A DNA stretch of 64,000 bases, taken from positions 1 to 64,000 of the forward strand of contig REDR01000043.1 of assembly GCA_007693385.1 (NCBI GenBank), in the 5' to 3' direction. The position numbers were made by a program, and so were the translations under genes. The first letter of the stretch is position 1. Each line of letters opens with the position of its first letter. This document shows positions 37,833-47,638 of this stretch, piece by piece. A model generated the notes under the pieces. It saw only the letters and a program-made list of their open reading frames with translations. It had not been told where the DNA came from and did no database searches. The DNA comes from Anaerolineaceae bacterium. Its GTDB lineage: Bacteria > Chloroflexota > Anaerolineae > Aggregatilineales > Phototrophicaceae.

Positions 37833-38723
37833 TTATTCTTCCGTCTCTTGTGCGGCGATGCGCCACGCCGCTTTGATCGTATTCTGTAACAACATGGTGA
37901 TGGTCATCGGACCGACGCCGCCCGGCACGCGGGTGATCGCGCCGACGATGCCCCGCGCTGATTCTAAATCAACATCACCGACGAAACGATAGCCGCGCTC
38001 GCTGTCGGGATCATCAATGCGGTTCGTGCCCACGTCGATGACCGTCGCGCCAGCTTTGAGCCACTCGCCCTGAATGTAATTGGGGATACCGGCGGCGGCG
38101 ATCACGATGTCGGCGTTTTGCAGGACGGCGGGCAGGTCTTTTGTGCGGCTGTGGGCGACGGTGACGGTGGCGTTGGCCTTCAGCAACATCAGCGCTACCG
38201 GCAGGCCGACGATATTACTACGCCCGACGACGACGGCATTCGCGCCGCTAATCTCCGCGCCGATCTCTTGCAGAAGCACCATACATCCCGTCGGCGTAGC
38301 CGGTGTGAATAGCGGTTCGCGCCCCTTCATGCCCAGCGTGCCGATGTTGACCGGATGAAAGCCGTCCACGTCTTTATCCAACCGCACCGCCTCTAATATC
38401 GCCTCTTCGTCGATCTGGTCGAATAGCGGTAGTTGCACCAGTATGCCGTGAATTTGCGGATCGTCGTTTAGCGCATGGACGGCGTTTAGCACGTCATCGT
38501 GCGTGCAGTCCGCTGAAAAGACGTGGGCGACGGAGTGAATACCAGCCGCTTCACAGGCGCGGCGCTTCATGCGGACGTATTGCGCGGAGGCCGGATCACC
38601 GCCGGCTAGCACCACGCCGAGTCCGGGCGGGTGGCCGTGTTTGGAGGCGAAATCCGCCGTTTCGCGCTGAATGTCCTCGCGGATGCGCTCGGCGATGGCG
38701 CGTCCGTCAATGATCTTCGTCAT
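37833..38723 (-). CDS. folD: Bifunctional methylenetetrahydrofolate dehydrogenase/cyclohydrolase
   Basis: VQLPLFDQIDEEAIL; KDVDGFHPVNIG; VVVGRSNIVGLPVALML; VIDVGTNRI; PGGVGPMTITMLLQNT. Confidence 0.96.
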   Translation of the reverse strand: MTKIIDGRAIAERIREDIQRETADFASKHGHPPGLGVVLAGGDPASAQYVRMKRRACEAAGIHSVAHVFSADCTHDDVLNAVHALNDDPQIHGILVQLPLFDQIDEEAILEAVRLDKDVDGFHPVNIGTLGMKGREPLFTPATPTGCMVLLQEIGAEISGANAVVVGRSNIVGLPVALMLLKANATVTVAHSRTKDLPAVLQNADIVIAAAGIPNYIQGEWLKAGATVIDVGTNRIDDPDSERGYRFVGDVDLESARGIVGAITRVPGGVGPMTITMLLQNTIKAAWRIAAQETEE

Positions 38724-38890
38724 GTTAGTCCCCCTTCGTGTGTTTTGATCGTGCGTTATTTGTCAACGCTTTTGAACAACTCATCTACAAAAATTTGCCC
38801 TAAGTTCGGCGGGAATCAGGTAACATAATAACAGTCAAATTATACAAAAAACACATCCGACTTTTAGCCGCCGGAGTGAAGGTTTATATC

Positions 38891-41800
38891 ATGAAATATC
38901 CTGATAGCAAGCAGAAACAGCAGAACCGTTCCCAAGCAGAGACCTTGCACGGGCGCTCTGTACAGGGGCAATCGTTAGTGGAGTATGCACTCATCGCTGT
39001 GTTGATCGGGCTGGCGCTAGGGCTGGGGCTGGCATCAACGCAGGATGCGGTCAGCCGCGTTTTTGAGCGTACCGTATATAGCCTACTGGGTGAAGAGCCT
39101 GAACGCCGTGATGGGGGTGGCCCCGCCGATTTCTGGCTGACTGTCACATGGGTGGCGGAAAATCCGCCGGAACAGCGCCGCCTGCCAACGCGCACGCTCG
39201 CGCCTGCTAGCGCGACGCCCACCGAGATACCGTCCAGTGGGGACGATAACGGCGACAACGGCGACAACGGCGAGCCAACTGTCGAGCCACCCACGCCGCA
39301 ACCAAGCCCTACACCGCTTGACATCGGTCACCACGCTCCATGGGTGGATACAGCCGATAATCAAAACTGGTACCGGCTGGGTAGTCCGGCATTTTTGGGT
39401 TATAGCCCATGGTTTGCCGATTATTATTCCGGCACGAACTTCAACGAATTCATTGAGGCGCGTCCCAACGGCGACCTATACGGCCAACGTGCCCGCTTCG
39501 TACTAGATTTCCCGAATCCGATCTTCAACGCATGGCAGACGGCGGATAACGCGCCATTTGCTGACGCGAACAACCAGTTCTCCGCCCGTTTCCAGCGCCG
39601 CATTTACGTGCCGCCGCATCAGGATGACGATACCGAGACACAGCCGGTAGACCTGCAATTCAACGTCACCGCGTCTGATGGTGTGCGCGTGTGGTTATTG
39701 CCGCAGATCGGGCCGAACGAATATGATTCGCCCGGCTGTACCGGCTGTCAGGTCATCAACGAGTGGACGAACGGCCTGAACTCTGTATCCGTGCCGCGCA
39801 GTGTGACGCCCGGCATGTACATGCTACAGGTGGATTACTATAACAACGGCGGCGACGCCATCTTGCAACTGGACATCAGTACCACGCGCAACCCTGACGA
39901 CGCGCAGATCACCGGCAACGCGGATAACTTCACCGTTGTCGATACCACGTCGCAATGTAACTGGGGTCTACGCACCACCGATGATTCCAACTCGCTTGAC
40001 CGCCTGTGGGATAAGCATTCGCAGGGCGATCTCGCGCAGAATACCGTGTGTTATCTGGAATTGCGCGGCTTCATCACTGTGCCCAATGAATTACCCGATC
40101 CGGTGTTCGTGTTCTGGGATGTGTGGGATTTAGCGGCTGGTCATGGCGCATGGCTGGAAATCGCGGAGTATACGGCACTCCCTGACGCGCCGTTCGCGCT
40201 TGACCGTGACGCGATCCAGTGGCAACGGATTGATATTCACAGTGGCGGCACGCGCAATTACAACTGGACGCGGCATGAGGTTGATCTGTCGGCTTTCAGT
40301 GGCCGCAATGTGACGTTCCGCTTCGCGCAGTTGACCGGCGGCGCGAATGATCGCCTGTGGCATATCGACGACATCGAAGTGAAAAGCGGCACAAATGGCG
40401 AATTCACCGCCGAGCCAATCGGCCCGGATACGCTGTTCGAGCTATCATCACCGTCGGATGCCGCCAGTTTCATCACCACCGGCCAGTGGCAATTGACCGG
40501 CAACAACACCCGCCCGGGTTCGACGTGCTGTTCGTGGGAATTACGCCCCGGCGGCGCGTATACCGGCCTGAGTACCGCGCCGACATCGCCGAACGCGGCG
40601 GGGCGTGTACAGGAAAATATGCGCGTCCATTACGTGCAAATCGTGCCGATGATCGACACGACGCTTTCGACGGAAGATCGTGATGGCGATACCGGCCCGC
40701 CGGTGCTGTCGTTCTGGCACGCTTACGACGTTGATCGTTATGTCGGGCTGGAAGTGCAATACCGCGCTGAAGGCAGTGACGAGTGGCTGGTGGTGCCCGG
40801 CGCGATACCGGATGAACCCGCCGGACGCCTGCTTGATGTGACCAACAATAACGACAACGCCTCACGCGACAACAACATCATGCGCCCGATGGATGTGACG
40901 TTGCAGTACATCGTCGATGCCAACGGTGACCCGATAGAGCGTTATCATCTGCGCTTCGCTATGCTGGTGCATGGCCTCAGTCCGGCAACCGGACACGGCG
41001 ATTTCCCGTCGGTGGGCGCGGGCTGGTGGATCGACGACATCGACCTGCACCGTGAGGGCGACCAGCGTTTCCTCGACTATCCGTTCTATGATGCCGCCGA
41101 GCAAGGCGTCGATAACTGGCTGGCGACGGGGACATGGTGGCGCACGACTGAAGAATCTCGCGTTGGCGCTCACTCCTTCGCGGACAGTCCAAACGGCAAC
41201 TTTCAGGCCAATACCGGCTCGCCGAATGACAGCTTGCATCTGATGACGGCGCATCCGATTGACCTCAACAACGACACCCCGAATAATCTTGATGCGGCGC
41301 TGAATCCGGATGGACGGGCGGGCAATACCGGCGGCATGGCCGAAAACCCGTATCTGACCTTCTGGCATAAACGTTTCTTGACCGATCAAGCTAGTATTCA
41401 TGTTGAGTGGCGGCGCGTTGATGAGGACGACACCGAATGGAAGCCATTATGGGCGTACCGTCGCGGGATGGGCTATCATGATGACTGGGAAAGCCGCACA
41501 CGGGTTAATGCCGCGTGGGAATACACGCGCATCAGCCTGCAACCAATCCTCGATCAGCTTGTGCGTCCGGGTGATGCCGATTACGATCCGGACGGTGACC
41601 TGACCGCCGATGATATTCACATTCGCTTCCGTCTGGAGAATTCCAGTACAGAGGTTGATCGTGGCTGGTTCATCGACGACATCCGGCTGGAAGAGTATAG
41701 CGAAACGTCGTTCCGCCTGTGGAGTGGTCCGAGTAATGACTTCGGACAGGGGCAGGATGTCATGTTCAATGCCAGCCCGGATAGCTTCGGCTGGTCGAAT

Positions 41801-44188
41801 ACATGGCGTTTGGGCGGCGATTGGCAACGCACGAACATCGACAGTCATTCCGGCGTATTCTCTTTCCATGAAAGCGTCGGTAGTGATACACAAGCGCCGT
41901 CGCACATCAATGACCCGTACACCCGCACCCGTACCGATACGTACAACATCCTTGAGTTGCAGACGATCATCGACATGCGGGCGACGGATGCCACGTTAGA
42001 GCCGACGCTGTACTTCTGGTCGCGCTTCTATGCCCGTTGGAGTGACCGGATGCGCGTTCAGGTATCCTATGAATTGCGGCCTGATGAATATTCTGCGATG
42101 GAAGGGCGTTGTCGTGGTGGCGTGCTGGCGCAATGTTTCGAGCGTGATTGGGGCTGGAGTCGCTGGTACGATGCCAGCACCAGTGCTTCGCAGAACAATT
42201 CGCTGTACGCGAGCTGGGACAGCAACGCTAGTGGTGATCGCCGCACGTTCTCGTGGCAACGCTGGCAAGTTGACCTGACCAGCATCCGCATCAACAACAG
42301 TAATCGCGTGTATCTGGTGCCGCATGACGGCGACCCGGGACGCCGCATCCGCATTCGCTTCCTGTTCGATGCGCTGAGTGGTAACGAGACGGACAAGCGT
42401 GACGGCTGGTATATTGACACGATCACCATTGAACCGCGCCGTAACCTGACCATTGCCCGCATCGCCGATCAGCCGTTCCTCGACGACGCCAACAATATGT
42501 TTAACTGGGTTGGCGAAGGTGGCTGGGGCATTGATCCCTCCGTGAGCTTACGCACGACGGAAGGTATCACCGCGCTCGGTTCGTGGACGGAATCGTGGTG
42601 GGACATGACGCCGGATTGTAACAATAATAATCCGCGTGGGCTTGGGACGGAAGACACGTGTGTAGGGTATCTGTTCGATAATGATGACTTCACTAACGCG
42701 CCATTGACCCGCATCGTATCGCAGGTCAATTACAATATGGGTCAGGGTTCGCCGCGCACGGGTATCCCTAACGACTTCTTCGCCGGACAATGGGTACTCA
42801 ATACGCCACAGGTGGGCGCGGGCTTCGGCATCGAGCCGGGTGAATATCGCTTCACCGCTACTGCTGATGATGGTATGCGGATGCGCTGGCAGGAGATTGA
42901 CGCCGCCGGTAATGTCATCGCTAATCAAGCCGGTTCGTGGAATATCATCAATCGCTGGCAGAATCAGGGCGATACAACCCGTTCCGGCACGGTCAACTTT
43001 GAAGAGGGCAAGCGCTACCGCCTGACGTTGCAGTATTACGAATGGGCGGGCGGGGCGACCATCGTGCTATCCGTCGATCAGGGGAATACTTTCTCCTTCG
43101 CCGATACGCCGCGCTTGACCAGCGACCCCTCGCAACCGGATGAGCCGCCCCTGCGTTACGCGAATTCGTCGTTGATCTCGGATGGTACGTTCGATCTGAG
43201 TAATACCGTCAATCCGGTTCTGGAATACAAGACAGCATATAAGATGCGCTGTGATTCGACGTTGCGCGTCGAAATATCGACGGATGGCGGCTTTAGCTGG
43301 GGACAGAGCAATCTGGGGCGCGGGAGTTTCGACAATCCCAATATCAACAATAACACGCGGCTACCCGACGATCCCTTTGGCTGGCGCGTGGTGCGCCACG
43401 ACCTGTCGGATTATGAAGGACAGGAAATCATGGTGCGCTTCCGGCTTGACCGGCAGAACACGCCACACTTGAATGACCGTAACGGCTGTGGCGATAACCC
43501 GCCAGCCAACACCAGCGGCTACTACATCGGCGCATGGTTGACGGACATCATCATCGCACCGGTGGGCGTGTTGCCACCACCTGATCCGAACGCGCCTGAT
43601 CCTACGCCGGAACCTGAACCAGAGCCTATCGCGTGGTCGTCACAGAATATCGGCTCAGGTCAGACAGGCAACGTCGTTGAGGACAATGGCACGTTCACCA
43701 TAACTACGCTAGGTGGCGACATCTGGGGTAGTACGGATCGCTTCCACTACATGTACACCCCGCTTTCCGGTGATGGTGAGATAATCGCCCGCGTGACTAG
43801 CTTCACTGGCGATAACGGGTGGCGCAAAGCGGGCGTGATGATCCGTGAGACGTTGAACGCCAATTCCACCCACGTGCTGATGGCGGTGACCGGTGGCAAC
43901 GGCAATGGCGTCTCCATGCAGTGGCGGCCCAGTGCTGGTAGCACTATGGACAGTGATCATGCTACTAGCGCGCAGACGATGCCGCATTGGGTGCGGCTGG
44001 TGCGTCAAGGCAATACGTTCACGGCGTATCACTCCAATGATGGCGTGACGTGGACACAGCAACACTCTCGTAATATTACTATGGGGGCGGATGTCTATAT
44101 CGGCATCATGGCGAGTTCTCACAATACGGGCAATTCGGCGGTAGCGACGTTTACCGACGTTGAAGTGATCGGCGACGTTGGCAACTGA
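38891..44188 (+). CDS. Giant multidomain surface protein with Flp/class III prepilin N-terminus, PA14-like regions, repeated jelly-roll-like units and a C-terminal DUF1349/LamG-like domain
   Basis: QGQSLVEYALIAVLIGLALGLGLAS (G|Q cleavage, E+5, Y+6); repeated unit endings WHIDDIEV, WWIDDIDL, WFIDDIRL, WYIDTITI, AWLTDIII; Pro/Asn/Gly linkers; C-term RKAGVMIRETLNANSTHVLMAVT. Confidence 0.85.
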   Translation: MKYPDSKQKQQNRSQAETLHGRSVQGQSLVEYALIAVLIGLALGLGLASTQDAVSRVFERTVYSLLGEEPERRDGGGPADFWLTVTWVAENPPEQRRLPTRTLAPASATPTEIPSSGDDNGDNGDNGEPTVEPPTPQPSPTPLDIGHHAPWVDTADNQNWYRLGSPAFLGYSPWFADYYSGTNFNEFIEARPNGDLYGQRARFVLDFPNPIFNAWQTADNAPFADANNQFSARFQRRIYVPPHQDDDTETQPVDLQFNVTASDGVRVWLLPQIGPNEYDSPGCTGCQVINEWTNGLNSVSVPRSVTPGMYMLQVDYYNNGGDAILQLDISTTRNPDDAQITGNADNFTVVDTTSQCNWGLRTTDDSNSLDRLWDKHSQGDLAQNTVCYLELRGFITVPNELPDPVFVFWDVWDLAAGHGAWLEIAEYTALPDAPFALDRDAIQWQRIDIHSGGTRNYNWTRHEVDLSAFSGRNVTFRFAQLTGGANDRLWHIDDIEVKSGTNGEFTAEPIGPDTLFELSSPSDAASFITTGQWQLTGNNTRPGSTCCSWELRPGGAYTGLSTAPTSPNAAGRVQENMRVHYVQIVPMIDTTLSTEDRDGDTGPPVLSFWHAYDVDRYVGLEVQYRAEGSDEWLVVPGAIPDEPAGRLLDVTNNNDNASRDNNIMRPMDVTLQYIVDANGDPIERYHLRFAMLVHGLSPATGHGDFPSVGAGWWIDDIDLHREGDQRFLDYPFYDAAEQGVDNWLATGTWWRTTEESRVGAHSFADSPNGNFQANTGSPNDSLHLMTAHPIDLNNDTPNNLDAALNPDGRAGNTGGMAENPYLTFWHKRFLTDQASIHVEWRRVDEDDTEWKPLWAYRRGMGYHDDWESRTRVNAAWEYTRISLQPILDQLVRPGDADYDPDGDLTADDIHIRFRLENSSTEVDRGWFIDDIRLEEYSETSFRLWSGPSNDFGQGQDVMFNASPDSFGWSNTWRLGGDWQRTNIDSHSGVFSFHESVGSDTQAPSHINDPYTRTRTDTYNILELQTIIDMRATDATLEPTLYFWSRFYARWSDRMRVQVSYELRPDEYSAMEGRCRGGVLAQCFERDWGWSRWYDASTSASQNNSLYASWDSNASGDRRTFSWQRWQVDLTSIRINNSNRVYLVPHDGDPGRRIRIRFLFDALSGNETDKRDGWYIDTITIEPRRNLTIARIADQPFLDDANNMFNWVGEGGWGIDPSVSLRTTEGITALGSWTESWWDMTPDCNNNNPRGLGTEDTCVGYLFDNDDFTNAPLTRIVSQVNYNMGQGSPRTGIPNDFFAGQWVLNTPQVGAGFGIEPGEYRFTATADDGMRMRWQEIDAAGNVIANQAGSWNIINRWQNQGDTTRSGTVNFEEGKRYRLTLQYYEWAGGATIVLSVDQGNTFSFADTPRLTSDPSQPDEPPLRYANSSLISDGTFDLSNTVNPVLEYKTAYKMRCDSTLRVEISTDGGFSWGQSNLGRGSFDNPNINNNTRLPDDPFGWRVVRHDLSDYEGQEIMVRFRLDRQNTPHLNDRNGCGDNPPANTSGYYIGAWLTDIIIAPVGVLPPPDPNAPDPTPEPEPEPIAWSSQNIGSGQTGNVVEDNGTFTITTLGGDIWGSTDRFHYMYTPLSGDGEIIARVTSFTGDNGWRKAGVMIRETLNANSTHVLMAVTGGNGNGVSMQWRPSAGSTMDSDHATSAQTMPHWVRLVRQGNTFTAYHSNDGVTWTQQHSRNITMGADVYIGIMASSHNTGNSAVATFTDVEVIGDVGN
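39244..39273 (+). repeat. In-frame 9-bp tandem repeat (GAYAACGGC)x3 encoding DNGDNGDNG in the linker
   Basis: GATAACGGCGACAACGGCGACAACGGCGAG. Confidence 0.8.
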
Positions 44189-44346: not shown

Positions 44347-45279
44347 GTGACCGTTCAAGAACGATTGGGTATGTTATTCATTCTGGTTGGGCCGGGCGGC
44401 GTCGGTAAAAATGCGTTGATGGGGCATGTGATGGCGAATATGCCTGACCTGCGCCAGCTTCCCACCGCCACCACGCGAAACCCGCGTGAAAGTGAGCAAC
44501 ACGGCGTCCAACATCTTTTCATCTCAGTAGACGACTTCCGCCAGATGATCGCCAATGACGAGCTTCTGGAACATCAGGAAGTGCATCCGGGCAAGTTCTA
44601 CGGCGTGCCCCGCGCCACAGTAGAAGACGCCATCCAACAAAAACGCGATCTCATCGCCGATATTGAATTCAAAGGGGCGACGATCTTACGGGCGGCGTAC
44701 CCCGAAAACGCACAGGCGGTCTTTATCGCGCCGCCCTCGCTAGAGGCACTGGAAGTCCGTATGCGTGAACGCGGCGACAGCCAGACCGACATCGACAACC
44801 GCTTTGACCGTCTGCCGTCGGAGATGTTCTACGCGCCCACATGCGATCATGTCATCGTCAATGATAACTTTGAGTCGGCCTGCGCCGAATTGCTGGCGAT
44901 TATTCAAGTGATGCGCGGCGAAGTGCCCGCCGTTTCCTTCCCCAAGTACGCGGTTGAATATAGCGTTGAGGTATGGCCGGTGATGGGCACGGAGGCGATA
45001 TTGCCGGTGACGTGTCGTGACCTGCCGCTAGAATCCGCCCTGCGTGATGGCGAGACGCCCGATATGGCCGCCCAGCGCCTGCTAGAAGCGATGTGGCCGC
45101 AATCTATCGACGTGGCAAATCTGTATTATGATGCGCCTAACGGCCTGCCGTCTGTCGATTTTGGTCTGGATGAAGCGATGCAGACCTATCACATTCGCTA
45201 TCGTTATGCGTATCGACTGGAGCCGCAAATACTTGACGCGGACTCGTTTCGGCGGGTGCCGCTTGCGGAAATAGGATAA
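44347..45279 (+). CDS. Guanylate kinase-like protein with ~100 aa C-terminal extension of unknown function
   Basis: LFILVGPGGVGKNALM; TATTRNPRESEQHGVQHLFIS; LLEHQEVHPGKFYGVPRATVEDAI; extension from ~VEYSVEVWPVMGTEA. Confidence 0.75.
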   Translation: MTVQERLGMLFILVGPGGVGKNALMGHVMANMPDLRQLPTATTRNPRESEQHGVQHLFISVDDFRQMIANDELLEHQEVHPGKFYGVPRATVEDAIQQKRDLIADIEFKGATILRAAYPENAQAVFIAPPSLEALEVRMRERGDSQTDIDNRFDRLPSEMFYAPTCDHVIVNDNFESACAELLAIIQVMRGEVPAVSFPKYAVEYSVEVWPVMGTEAILPVTCRDLPLESALRDGETPDMAAQRLLEAMWPQSIDVANLYYDAPNGLPSVDFGLDEAMQTYHIRYRYAYRLEPQILDADSFRRVPLAEIG

Positions 45280-45288
45280 AGACCGATT

Positions 45289-46362
45289 ATGACGTTACAC
45301 GACATCTACCGTGAGGCCGGTGCGGAACTCGCCAGCGATGGCATCCCGTTGCATTTTGGCGATGTGGCGGGCGAATATCAAGCGGCGTTCAACGGGGCGG
45401 TTCTGCTGGATCGCTCGCATGAAGGCCGCATCGAGCTATCCGGCGCGGATCGCTTCGATCTGCTCAACCGCATGTCTACGAACGACACGCTGAACATGAA
45501 GACGGGCGAAGGCCGCCCGACGATCTTCACCAATGCCACCGCCCGCATTTTAGATCGCGTGCTGGTTTATCATCACCGTCCGGAGCGCCTGTTGATCGTG
45601 ACCGGCGCGGGACGGAATACAGCCGTTGGGCGCTACATACAGTCCAATATCTTCTATGGCGATGATGTGCAGGTACACAACATACAGGGCGCGACGGCGC
45701 AATTTGAGATTCACGGCGCGACGGCTGATGATGTGGCGTCGAAATTCATCGCCGCGTCGAAGTTCATCGACGCGGCGCCCGACGCTGGATCGGACGCGCT
45801 GTATTCAACGACGGTGGACGGCTTCAAAGCCGATTTCATCCGCGTGAAGAAGGCGCTATATGGTGCGGCGTGGCGCGTGATCGTCGGGCAGGGCAACGCG
45901 CCCGCGATGTGGTCGGCGCTACGCGAAGCGGGCGCGACGCCATCCGGCGGGGTTGTCTACAACGCGCACCGCATCCGCGCCGGTCTACCCAGCGTCGGCA
46001 CAGAGCTGACCGAGCGTTATATCCCGTTGGAGTTGGGGCTGTGGGATGAAGTCAGCTTCACGAAGGGCTGTTACACCGGACAGGAAATCATCGCCCGCAT
46101 GGAGAGTCGTGGCAAGCTGGCGAAGATGCTGGTGCGCTTGCAGACGGCGCAAGCGGTGGCGAGCGATACGCCGCTATTCAGCGCGGGCAAGCGTGCGGGC
46201 GAGATCACCAGTAGCGTCATCGCGCCGGATGGCGAATGCTACGCGATGGGCGTGGTCAAGGCGGGCGTGGTCAACGACGGGGCGACCTTACACACCGAAG
46301 ATGCGCCGTCTGCGCCGATTCATATCGGCGATATACTGGGTGTACAACCGCTACATGGCTAA
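45289..46362 (+). CDS. GcvT/YgfZ family folate-binding protein
   Basis: LLDRSHEGRIELSGADRFDLLNRMSTNDT; ELGLWDEVSFTKGCYTGQEIIARMESRGKLAKMLV (K-G-C-Y-x-G-Q-E). Confidence 0.9.
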   Translation: MTLHDIYREAGAELASDGIPLHFGDVAGEYQAAFNGAVLLDRSHEGRIELSGADRFDLLNRMSTNDTLNMKTGEGRPTIFTNATARILDRVLVYHHRPERLLIVTGAGRNTAVGRYIQSNIFYGDDVQVHNIQGATAQFEIHGATADDVASKFIAASKFIDAAPDAGSDALYSTTVDGFKADFIRVKKALYGAAWRVIVGQGNAPAMWSALREAGATPSGGVVYNAHRIRAGLPSVGTELTERYIPLELGLWDEVSFTKGCYTGQEIIARMESRGKLAKMLVRLQTAQAVASDTPLFSAGKRAGEITSSVIAPDGECYAMGVVKAGVVNDGATLHTEDAPSAPIHIGDILGVQPLHG

Positions 46363-46453
46363 TCCCGCAGACGTAAACCGTCGCAGGGTTGCGGCGAAAA
46401 ATCACGTTTGCGTTTATACTAAAGCTATTCGGGTTTCATCCACAGGAGGACTT

Positions 46454-47638
46454 ATGAAATATTGGTCGAAGTTTTTCGGTTTGCTGGCTATCGGGTTCGG
46501 GTTGTTGGGCGGGGTCATCAGCGCTCAGGCCGGAGCAGTCGGAGAAGAGCAACAGGCGGAATTCAGGCCGCCGGTGATGGTGGTCAATACCAGCTTTTTG
46601 AATGTGCGTACCGGGCCGAGTACCGGCTACACGGTGTTAATCACGGTGACCGGCGGCACACAATTGCCGGTGCTGGGTATTGCGCCGGATCGCGTATGGT
46701 ATCAGGTTTCAACGGCGGCGGGAGTCGGGTGGATTAACTCCGAGTTCGCCATCGGGCGCGGCGAATTCCGCAACGTGCCCACCGTTGAAGCGCCGGTGCC
46801 GGTAGCGGTTGGCGTGGATATGGCCGCGCCGGGGACGCCATCGCAGGCCGCCGCTTTCACTGGCGGGCGGGCATGGGGCGCTTCGGTGACGATCACGCAT
46901 CCGGCACGCCTGCAACCGGCGATGAGTTCGCCGTCGCCCGGTCAGGCCAGCGAGAATCCATCGCGCATCTATACGCTGATGTCGTCCGCTTCGAGCGATG
47001 GCTCGGTGTGGTATCAGGTCGATATTCCTGAATTGGGCGCGGTGTGGATCGAAGGATCGAAGGCGCAATTGCGGCCTTACGCCTGCCAGATGACGGCGGT
47101 TGTGATGCTCGGTACGGCACGGCCTAACATGGGCCCGGATGGTTCCGGCACGCTGACCGGTCAGGTGGCATTGCCGCCCGGCGCGGAAGCCTATCTACTG
47201 GATGTACAGGGCATGTTCTTCAAGATCGAGCTAGCCGACGGCAACACCGGCTGGTTACGTCAGGAAGAAGTCGCGGTTCGTTCGGCTTCGGTCACGTCGG
47301 CGTATTGCGCCACCGGCGGCGTTGATAGCGGGATGACTGCCGCGCCGTCCGCTTCAGCAGATGCTCCCAGCGCGGATCGCCCGCCGGGTTCTACCCAACC
47401 GCTTGTCTCGTCAGCGCGGGTGATCGTCAACACGCCGTTCTTGAACATCCGTAGCGGCCCCGGCTCGCAGTTTCCGGTCATCACGTCGGTTCCGGGTGGC
47501 ACGGTATTGGATGTGACCGGCTTTGCGCCGGATGGCGTGTGGTATCGCGTGTCCGGTAGCTTCGGCATGGGCTGGCTGGATAGCAATTTCGCCATCCTGC
47601 GCGGCGATGGTAGCCGCCTGCCCGTCGTCAATCGCTAG
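46454..47638 (+). CDS. Secreted protein with at least two bacterial SH3 domains
   Basis: Signal peptide MKYWSKFFGLLAIGFGLLGGVISAQA; VVNTSFLNVRTGPSTGYTVLITVTGG and IVNTPFLNIRSGPGSQFPVITSVPGG; true ATG 46454 after AGGAGG, so the ORF-track start at 46046 is too far upstream. Confidence 0.9.
   Translation: MKYWSKFFGLLAIGFGLLGGVISAQAGAVGEEQQAEFRPPVMVVNTSFLNVRTGPSTGYTVLITVTGGTQLPVLGIAPDRVWYQVSTAAGVGWINSEFAIGRGEFRNVPTVEAPVPVAVGVDMAAPGTPSQAAAFTGGRAWGASVTITHPARLQPAMSSPSPGQASENPSRIYTLMSSASSDGSVWYQVDIPELGAVWIEGSKAQLRPYACQMTAVVMLGTARPNMGPDGSGTLTGQVALPPGAEAYLLDVQGMFFKIELADGNTGWLRQEEVAVRSASVTSAYCATGGVDSGMTAAPSASADAPSADRPPGSTQPLVSSARVIVNTPFLNIRSGPGSQFPVITSVPGGTVLDVTGFAPDGVWYRVSGSFGMGWLDSNFAILRGDGSRLPVVNR

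Follow-up and report, generated by a model that had tools for sequence, protein, structure and literature searches.

What kind of protein begins as a small pilin and then runs on for more than a thousand residues? This question was raised by a single gene in the window, by which we mean the whole 64,000-nucleotide stretch of Anaerolineaceae DNA that was analysed. An earlier note, made from the letters of this DNA, had read the gene at 38891-44188 as a protein of ~1765 aa carrying a Flp/class III prepilin signature, and had suggested either a large minor pilin or tip adhesin or a surface protein whose anchoring depends on a borrowed prepilin peptidase.

Architecture of the giant Flp-type protein

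The open reading frame occupied 38876-44188 of the + strand, and translation from the ATG at 38891, which is preceded at 8 nt by a GAAGG ribosome-binding site, gave a product of 1,765 aa (hereafter the giant), the size claimed earlier. The predicted mature protein had about 1,739 aa, with a computed mass of 194 kDa and a pI of 4.5. Its parts followed in the order leader, G-Q-S-L-V-E-Y prepilin site, Flp-like helix, linker, two PA14-like domains, five MAM-like units and DUF1349, the second PA14-like domain lying between MAM-like units 4 and 5. The features of the locus were as follows.

37833..38723, - strand: folD, divergent neighbour and synteny marker, not part of the pilin
38891..44188, + strand: giant modular Flp-type prepilin, 1,765 aa (homologues)
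38891..38968, + strand: leader peptide, aa 1-26, hydrophilic and net positive, G at its end (class III signal)
38969..39088, + strand: Flp pilin module, aa 27-66, QSLVEYALI..., helix that is hydrophobic and then, in its second half, amphipathic (alignment, model, profile)
39122..39160, + strand: conserved second amphipathic helix, aa 78-90, DFWLTVTWVAENP region (alignment, AlphaFold2 model)
39161..39319, + strand: disordered Pro/Thr/Asn/Gly-rich linker, aa 91-143 (model, composition)
39323..39913, + strand: PA14-like domain 1, about aa 145-341 (profile match to PDB 6qe7, E 1e-31; model)
39926..40390, + strand: MAM/jelly-roll unit 1, about aa 346-500 (Pfam, model, motif)
40406..41056, + strand: MAM/jelly-roll unit 2, about aa 506-722, boundaries approximate (model, motif)
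41057..41698, + strand: MAM/jelly-roll unit 3, about aa 723-936, boundaries approximate (model, motif)
41699..42445, + strand: MAM/jelly-roll unit 4, about aa 937-1185, boundaries approximate (model, motif)
42665..43093, + strand: PA14-like domain 2, aa 1259-1401 (profile match to 6qe7, E 2.7e-26)
43118..43558, + strand: MAM/jelly-roll unit 5 (InhA-like_MAM), about aa 1410-1556; end of family-wide conservation
43622..44185, + strand: C-terminal DUF1349 concanavalin-A-like domain, aa 1578-1765 (Pfam; Foldseek)
44347..45279, + strand: guanylate-kinase-like gene, downstream neighbour and synteny marker
45289..46362, + strand: GCV_T aminomethyltransferase-like gene, synteny marker

The leader of 26 residues contained 5 K/R and 2 D/E; those of the homologues were 11-26 aa long. 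The stretch at aa 26-48 reads GQSLVEYALIAVLIGLALGLGLA, and the G that ends the leader was followed by QSLVEYALIAVLIGLALGLGLASTQDAVSRVFERTVYSLLG, then by the Pro/Thr/Asn/Gly linker and by ~1,600 residues of beta domains. Searched as a single sequence with Pfam, the giant gave InhA-like_MAM at 35.6 bits and DUF1349 at 33.0 bits (cut-off 32.4), with PA14 (20.9 bits) and Flp_Fap (15.3 bits over aa 26-58) both sub-threshold. The Flp and PA14 assignments, which lay below cut-off in single-sequence Pfam/NCBIfam searches, were settled by homologue-built profiles, and these made both PA14 domains secure through 6qe7, the PA14 dyad of RsgI3, as well as the Lap adhesin 6m8m. Each of the five MAM-like units was closed by a W-x-[I/T]-D-[D/T/I]-I motif, at aa 490, 712, 926, 1173 and 1549.

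AlphaFold2, run on two overlapping pieces of the protein (mean pLDDT 74.5 and 83.2), predicted a helix at aa 28-66, made of segments 28-49 and 51-66, a second amphipathic helix at 78-90, disorder up to about aa 143 and beta-sandwiches from there to the C-terminus. The last domain resembled 3mep in a Foldseek search (TM 0.82 over the target) and also lectin/CBM folds. Whole-model matches of the first half were a mosaic of beta-sandwiches with low TM-scores, and no single one of them was relied on. No C-terminal anchor was visible. The anatomy proposed before these analyses (a linker, PA14-like regions, about five jelly-roll-like units and a DUF1349/LamG-like end) was right in every part.

Folds of the InhA-like_MAM, PA14 and DUF1349-like kinds occur in extracellular enzymes, and the giant might on that account be a secreted polysaccharide-degrading enzyme or a metalloprotease-like (InhA-type) protein that uses a pilin-like export signal. 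We hold this to be extremely improbable, for no catalytic domain was detected across the 1,765 aa in Pfam, NCBIfam and PDB sequence searches.

The N-terminal pilin module and the range of the family

A tblastn search baited with the whole protein, and not with the prepilin motif, found relatives of the giant in 47 of 61 related genomes; a collection scan baited with the motif was left out as evidence for its conservation. All 24 fetched loci with an intact N-terminus, the window included, carried [G/A]-Q-x-[LM]-[VIT]-E-Y behind a short leader. The residue at -1 was G in 23 of them and A in one, and E+5 and Y+6 were invariant. In an alignment of 20 giants, Q27, E31, Y32, L34 and F58 were invariant and G26 nearly so, and the amphipathic half of the Flp helix was conserved as well as the hydrophobic half. 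A profile of the first 60 aa of the giants matched ordinary Flp pilins of 50-80 aa in a phylum-wide search (E down to 2.8e-18), and the small Flp of the same genome was matched at E 3.6e-12. The N-terminus was called a pilin module because of this profile homology to Flp pilins, rather than because of the motif alone.

These observations bear on a simpler reading, in which the giant is an ordinary surface protein with an uncleaved signal anchor, resembling a pilin by chance or convergence. The sub-threshold Pfam Flp_Fap score of the window giant would fit it, but the invariance of Q+1, E+5 and Y+6 with a near-invariant G-1, and the profile match with small Flp pilins (E about 1e-18), argue against it. 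A glutamate inside a membrane helix is likewise atypical of a plain anchor, and the gene was missing where Tad was missing (see below). Such an anchor is therefore very unlikely.

The giant showed the leader ending in G/A, the E+5 and the hydrophobic helix of type IVc pilins, but not their small size, and since it has 1,765 aa against about 50-80 aa it is to be regarded as a modular, not a canonical, Flp pilin. It agreed with the definition of a modular pilin given by Raynaud et al. 2021 (PMC8179133) in joining a pilin module to PA14, MAM and DUF1349 domains via a disordered Pro/Thr linker. It fell outside the TadE/TadF/TadG class of tip pilins, which begin with a TadE (PF07811) or Tad (PF13400) domain, as a search of the genome for TadE gave no match to its gene and the N-terminal match was to Flp_Fap.

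The fusion of a Flp module to a large arm is conserved across an order of Chloroflexota. The giants measured about 1,480-2,180 aa, and their place in the genome, with divergent folD on one side and the guanylate-kinase-like and GCV_T pair on the other, was the same across the family; at least the folD side was also kept in other families of the order. Because the locus is shared within family and order, the giant gene appears to be old and mostly vertically kept. In none of the neighbourhoods examined was it linked to tad genes. Relatives named in public records came from Anaerolineae and Phototrophicales MAGs, and the cultured Phototrophicus methaneseepsis ZRK33, whose genome is complete, apparently carries the gene as well. 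Outside the order, the longest ORF with the N-terminal profile had 522 aa among the matches listed, a hint, though no more than that, of a concentration of the giants in the order. One public record titled as a MAG of the cyanobacterium Pleurocapsa minor (L098) contained a Chloroflexota giant gene; the assembly was probably mislabelled or contaminated. In the window, an SH3_3-repeat protein (46376-47635) was encoded just downstream of the folate-type genes.

Conservation within the family stopped at about aa 1,556. The DUF1349 unit beyond it was missing from most family members, and similar stretches were present in some other families, so the far end of the giant looks like an exchangeable module. 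The order also contained other Flp-type fusions whose arms are unrelated to that of the giant, one of 2,182 aa with an arm of PPC, malectin and GH115_C (L057:149-6697) and one of 798 aa with an arm of Ig, cadherin and LamG (L061:4448-6844). Large TadE-type fusions were seen too: one of 975 aa in G027 (L199:3053-5980), and a 1,578-aa ORF of G014 (L197, - strand) that was considered as a diverged giant and rejected as such.

As the source is a draft genome in 137 contigs, a gene-calling or assembly artefact joining a small flp to a neighbouring adhesin gene had to be considered. The homologues refute it: independent assemblies by the dozen carry the same fusion, and one of them is the genome G027, a single contig (C1) with the giant at about 4,097,018-4,102,393. 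The probability left to an artefact is practically nil.

The Tad machinery and its co-occurrence with the giant

The window contained no tad genes, and all T2SSE, RcpC, TadE and Peptidase_A24 matches genome-wide lay on other contigs of the 3.59 Mb genome (137 contigs, 97% complete). On contig C133 the genes for CpaB/RcpC, CpaE, CpaF, TadB and TadC stood side by side, CpaE combining a response regulator with ParA, and no secretin gene was seen in this cluster. A Peptidase_A24, the only A24 prepilin peptidase detected in the genome, was found on contig C81, a canonical Flp of 54 aa on contig C22, and two TadE/TadG-type sets on contigs C130 and C71. Tad assembly genes and a prepilin peptidase thus share the genome with the giant, and this inventory resembles both the Tad set reported for Chloroflexales (rcpC-tadZABC, tadEEG, flp; PMC7332563) and the Tad operon of Litorilinea (PMC13319060). 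Linkage to a tad cluster is typical but not obligatory for Flp pilins; it was lacking for the giant and likewise for the small flp.

The set on contig C71 (L046:4109-12506) was oversized, with adjoining genes for a 1,020-aa TadE-type, a 1,277-aa Tad/vWA-type and a 471-aa TadE-type protein, so that giant minor pilins also occur among TadE-type proteins. Apart from the tad cluster, contig C61 encoded another CpaF (L010:7439-8971), a diverged one with about 54% identity, and most genomes of the family had such a CpaF pair.

Among 37 family genomes, 27 had both CpaF and the giant, six had neither, three had CpaF without the giant (G004, G014 and G024), and in one the giant was present with no CpaF found (G028, 75% complete, 1,350 contigs). 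CpaF and T2SSE served as Tad markers; RcpC was dropped since it missed G032, which has both CpaF and the giant. G025 was recounted and no longer scored as lacking the giant, as its contig ends inside the gene. The association of CpaF and giant gave a one-sided Fisher p of 2.3e-4 in these 37 related genomes, a value that overstates their independence and that we take as support, not proof. The six Tad-less genomes gave no T2SSE-family match at all. In at least two of them, G010 and G016, folD directly adjoined the kinase gene with nothing between, and the same empty junction was seen in G004 and G014, which kept Tad. The Tad-less genomes fell in two to three places of a FolD tree in which several branches were weak. 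The three genomes with Tad and without the giant indicate that Tad does not need the giant.

Each of the Tad-less genomes (G033, G016, G001, G010, G018 and G035), in which neither T2SSE nor RcpC was matched, encoded one or two small Flp-like ORFs. Those read in G033, G016, G001 and G010 (L184, L190, L192, L193) had the full GQ...EY signature; those of G018 and G035 are L189 and L191. Judged by their sequences, these ORFs are orphan pilins with no detectable Tad motor. Since the Tad-less genomes keep small Flps, it is specifically the giant, and not every protein with a Flp signature, that tracks the Tad motor.

This pattern weighs on the proposal that the giant is processed as a prepilin without being polymerised, being either held in the membrane or lifted to the surface by the Tad motor as a stand-alone adhesin. 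In its favour are the unlinked gene, an arm far larger than any pilin load that we found described, and the persistence of small orphan Flps without any T2SSE ATPase, so that some Flp-signature proteins seem to occur where there is no Tad motor. However, the giant itself was absent from exactly those Tad-less genomes, and the amphipathic half of the Flp helix was conserved along with the hydrophobic half, which makes a non-polymerised giant rather unlikely. Anchoring as the only use of prepilin peptidase, the second suggestion of the earlier note, is less likely for the same reason, that the gene is absent where the motor is absent. Its first suggestion, a large minor pilin or tip adhesin, fared better: the machinery was indeed elsewhere in the genome, a prepilin peptidase, cpaB-cpaE-cpaF-tadB-tadC, Flp and TadE/TadG were all found, and the homologues kept the Glu+5 and, with one A in 24, the Gly. 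On these two grounds it is the best-supported reading.

A probable adhesin of the Tad fibre and its known relatives

The giant is, in our judgement, quite likely a modular type IVc (Tad) pilin that is processed by prepilin peptidase and stands in or at the tip of a Tad pilus with an adhesive arm. Because the fusion is conserved across the order and missing where the fibre machinery is missing, its probable role is that of an adhesin of unusual size on the Tad fibre. We infer the following course. The leader would probably be cut at G26-Q27 by the only A24 prepilin peptidase detected in the genome, and the Flp helix would be assembled into the Tad pilus by the CpaF/TadB/TadC motor, where the giant would be a minor subunit, placed either at the tip or close to it, or scattered along the shaft. 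On its flexible Pro/Thr linker the acidic arm of ~1,600 residues, made up of beta-sandwiches of the PA14, MAM and DUF1349 types, would reach outward to bind a polysaccharide or a neighbouring surface. A carbohydrate-binding role is a candidate suggested by fold and sequence resemblance; the likeness of the PA14 domains to those of RsgI3 and the Lap adhesin, together with the lectin/CBM-like fold of the C-terminus, speaks for it, and a match to carbohydrate-binding folds identifies no ligand. Also counting against a modular Tad pilin are the two TadE/TadG-type sets that the genome already has as candidate tip proteins, the distance of the gene from tad, and the three Tad-positive genomes without it. 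A more far-reaching variant, of low probability, would have the giants copolymerised along the whole shaft as a "bottle-brush" adhesive pilus. As Flp is headless and its C-terminus would face outward, each shaft copy would project a long rod of beta domains via the Pro/Thr linker. No description of such a filament design was found in the literature searched.

Modular pilins and Tad tip adhesins are already known; what is new is the use of a helical Flp as the carrier, together with the size and the order-wide conservation. No report of a Flp-class modular pilin of this size was found in a literature search that left most subscription journals and bioRxiv outside. If the proposed role is true, it implies that there is room for a subunit of about 190 kDa both in the thin Tad pilus and in its export path, which is relevant to the way in which Chloroflexota build their Tad pili and expose them. 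The family of giants is old and conserved.

Canonical Flp/PilA pilins (PF04964) share with the giant the leader, the G-Q site, E+5, Y+6 and the amphipathic second half over about 45 aligned residues, but they stop at about 50-80 aa, whereas about 1,700 residues follow in the giant. The Flp-type minor pilins of Myxococcus, KilO (59 aa) and the all-helical KilK, are small and were proposed as adapters (PMC12075869); the giant merges this adapter class with an adhesive load. The tip proteins KilL/KilM/KilN of Myxococcus (Herrou et al. 2025, PMC12075869), CpaL of Caulobacter (PMC12607857) and TadE/F/G likewise belong to Tad machinery and combine a pilin-like N-terminus with variable C-terminal domains, proposed to sit at the pilus end, but they are TadE/F/G-type pilins with a beta-sheet head and the giant is Flp-type. 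The lectin-type PA14 domains of RsgI3 and Lap, to which both PA14 domains of the giant were matched at the level of sequence profiles, belong to an anti-sigma sensor and to a large biofilm adhesin, respectively, and are not pilin-borne as they are here. PilB and PilC of Streptococcus sanguinis, two modular type IV pilins (Raynaud et al. 2021, PMC8179133; PMC9934059), also consist of a class III signal, a short pilin module, a linker and a grafted adhesive module, theirs being vWA or lectin. Their carrier is an IPR012902-type pilin, in contrast to the all-helical Flp (type IVc) pilin of the giant. Only IPR012902 was covered by the survey of modular pilins, in which the largest protein reached 860 residues (PMC8179133), compared with 1,765 aa for the window giant and up to about 2,180 aa for others. 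With the giants, the modular-pilin principle reaches beyond IPR012902-type pilins into the Flp class, and their arms are much larger than in that 860-residue case.
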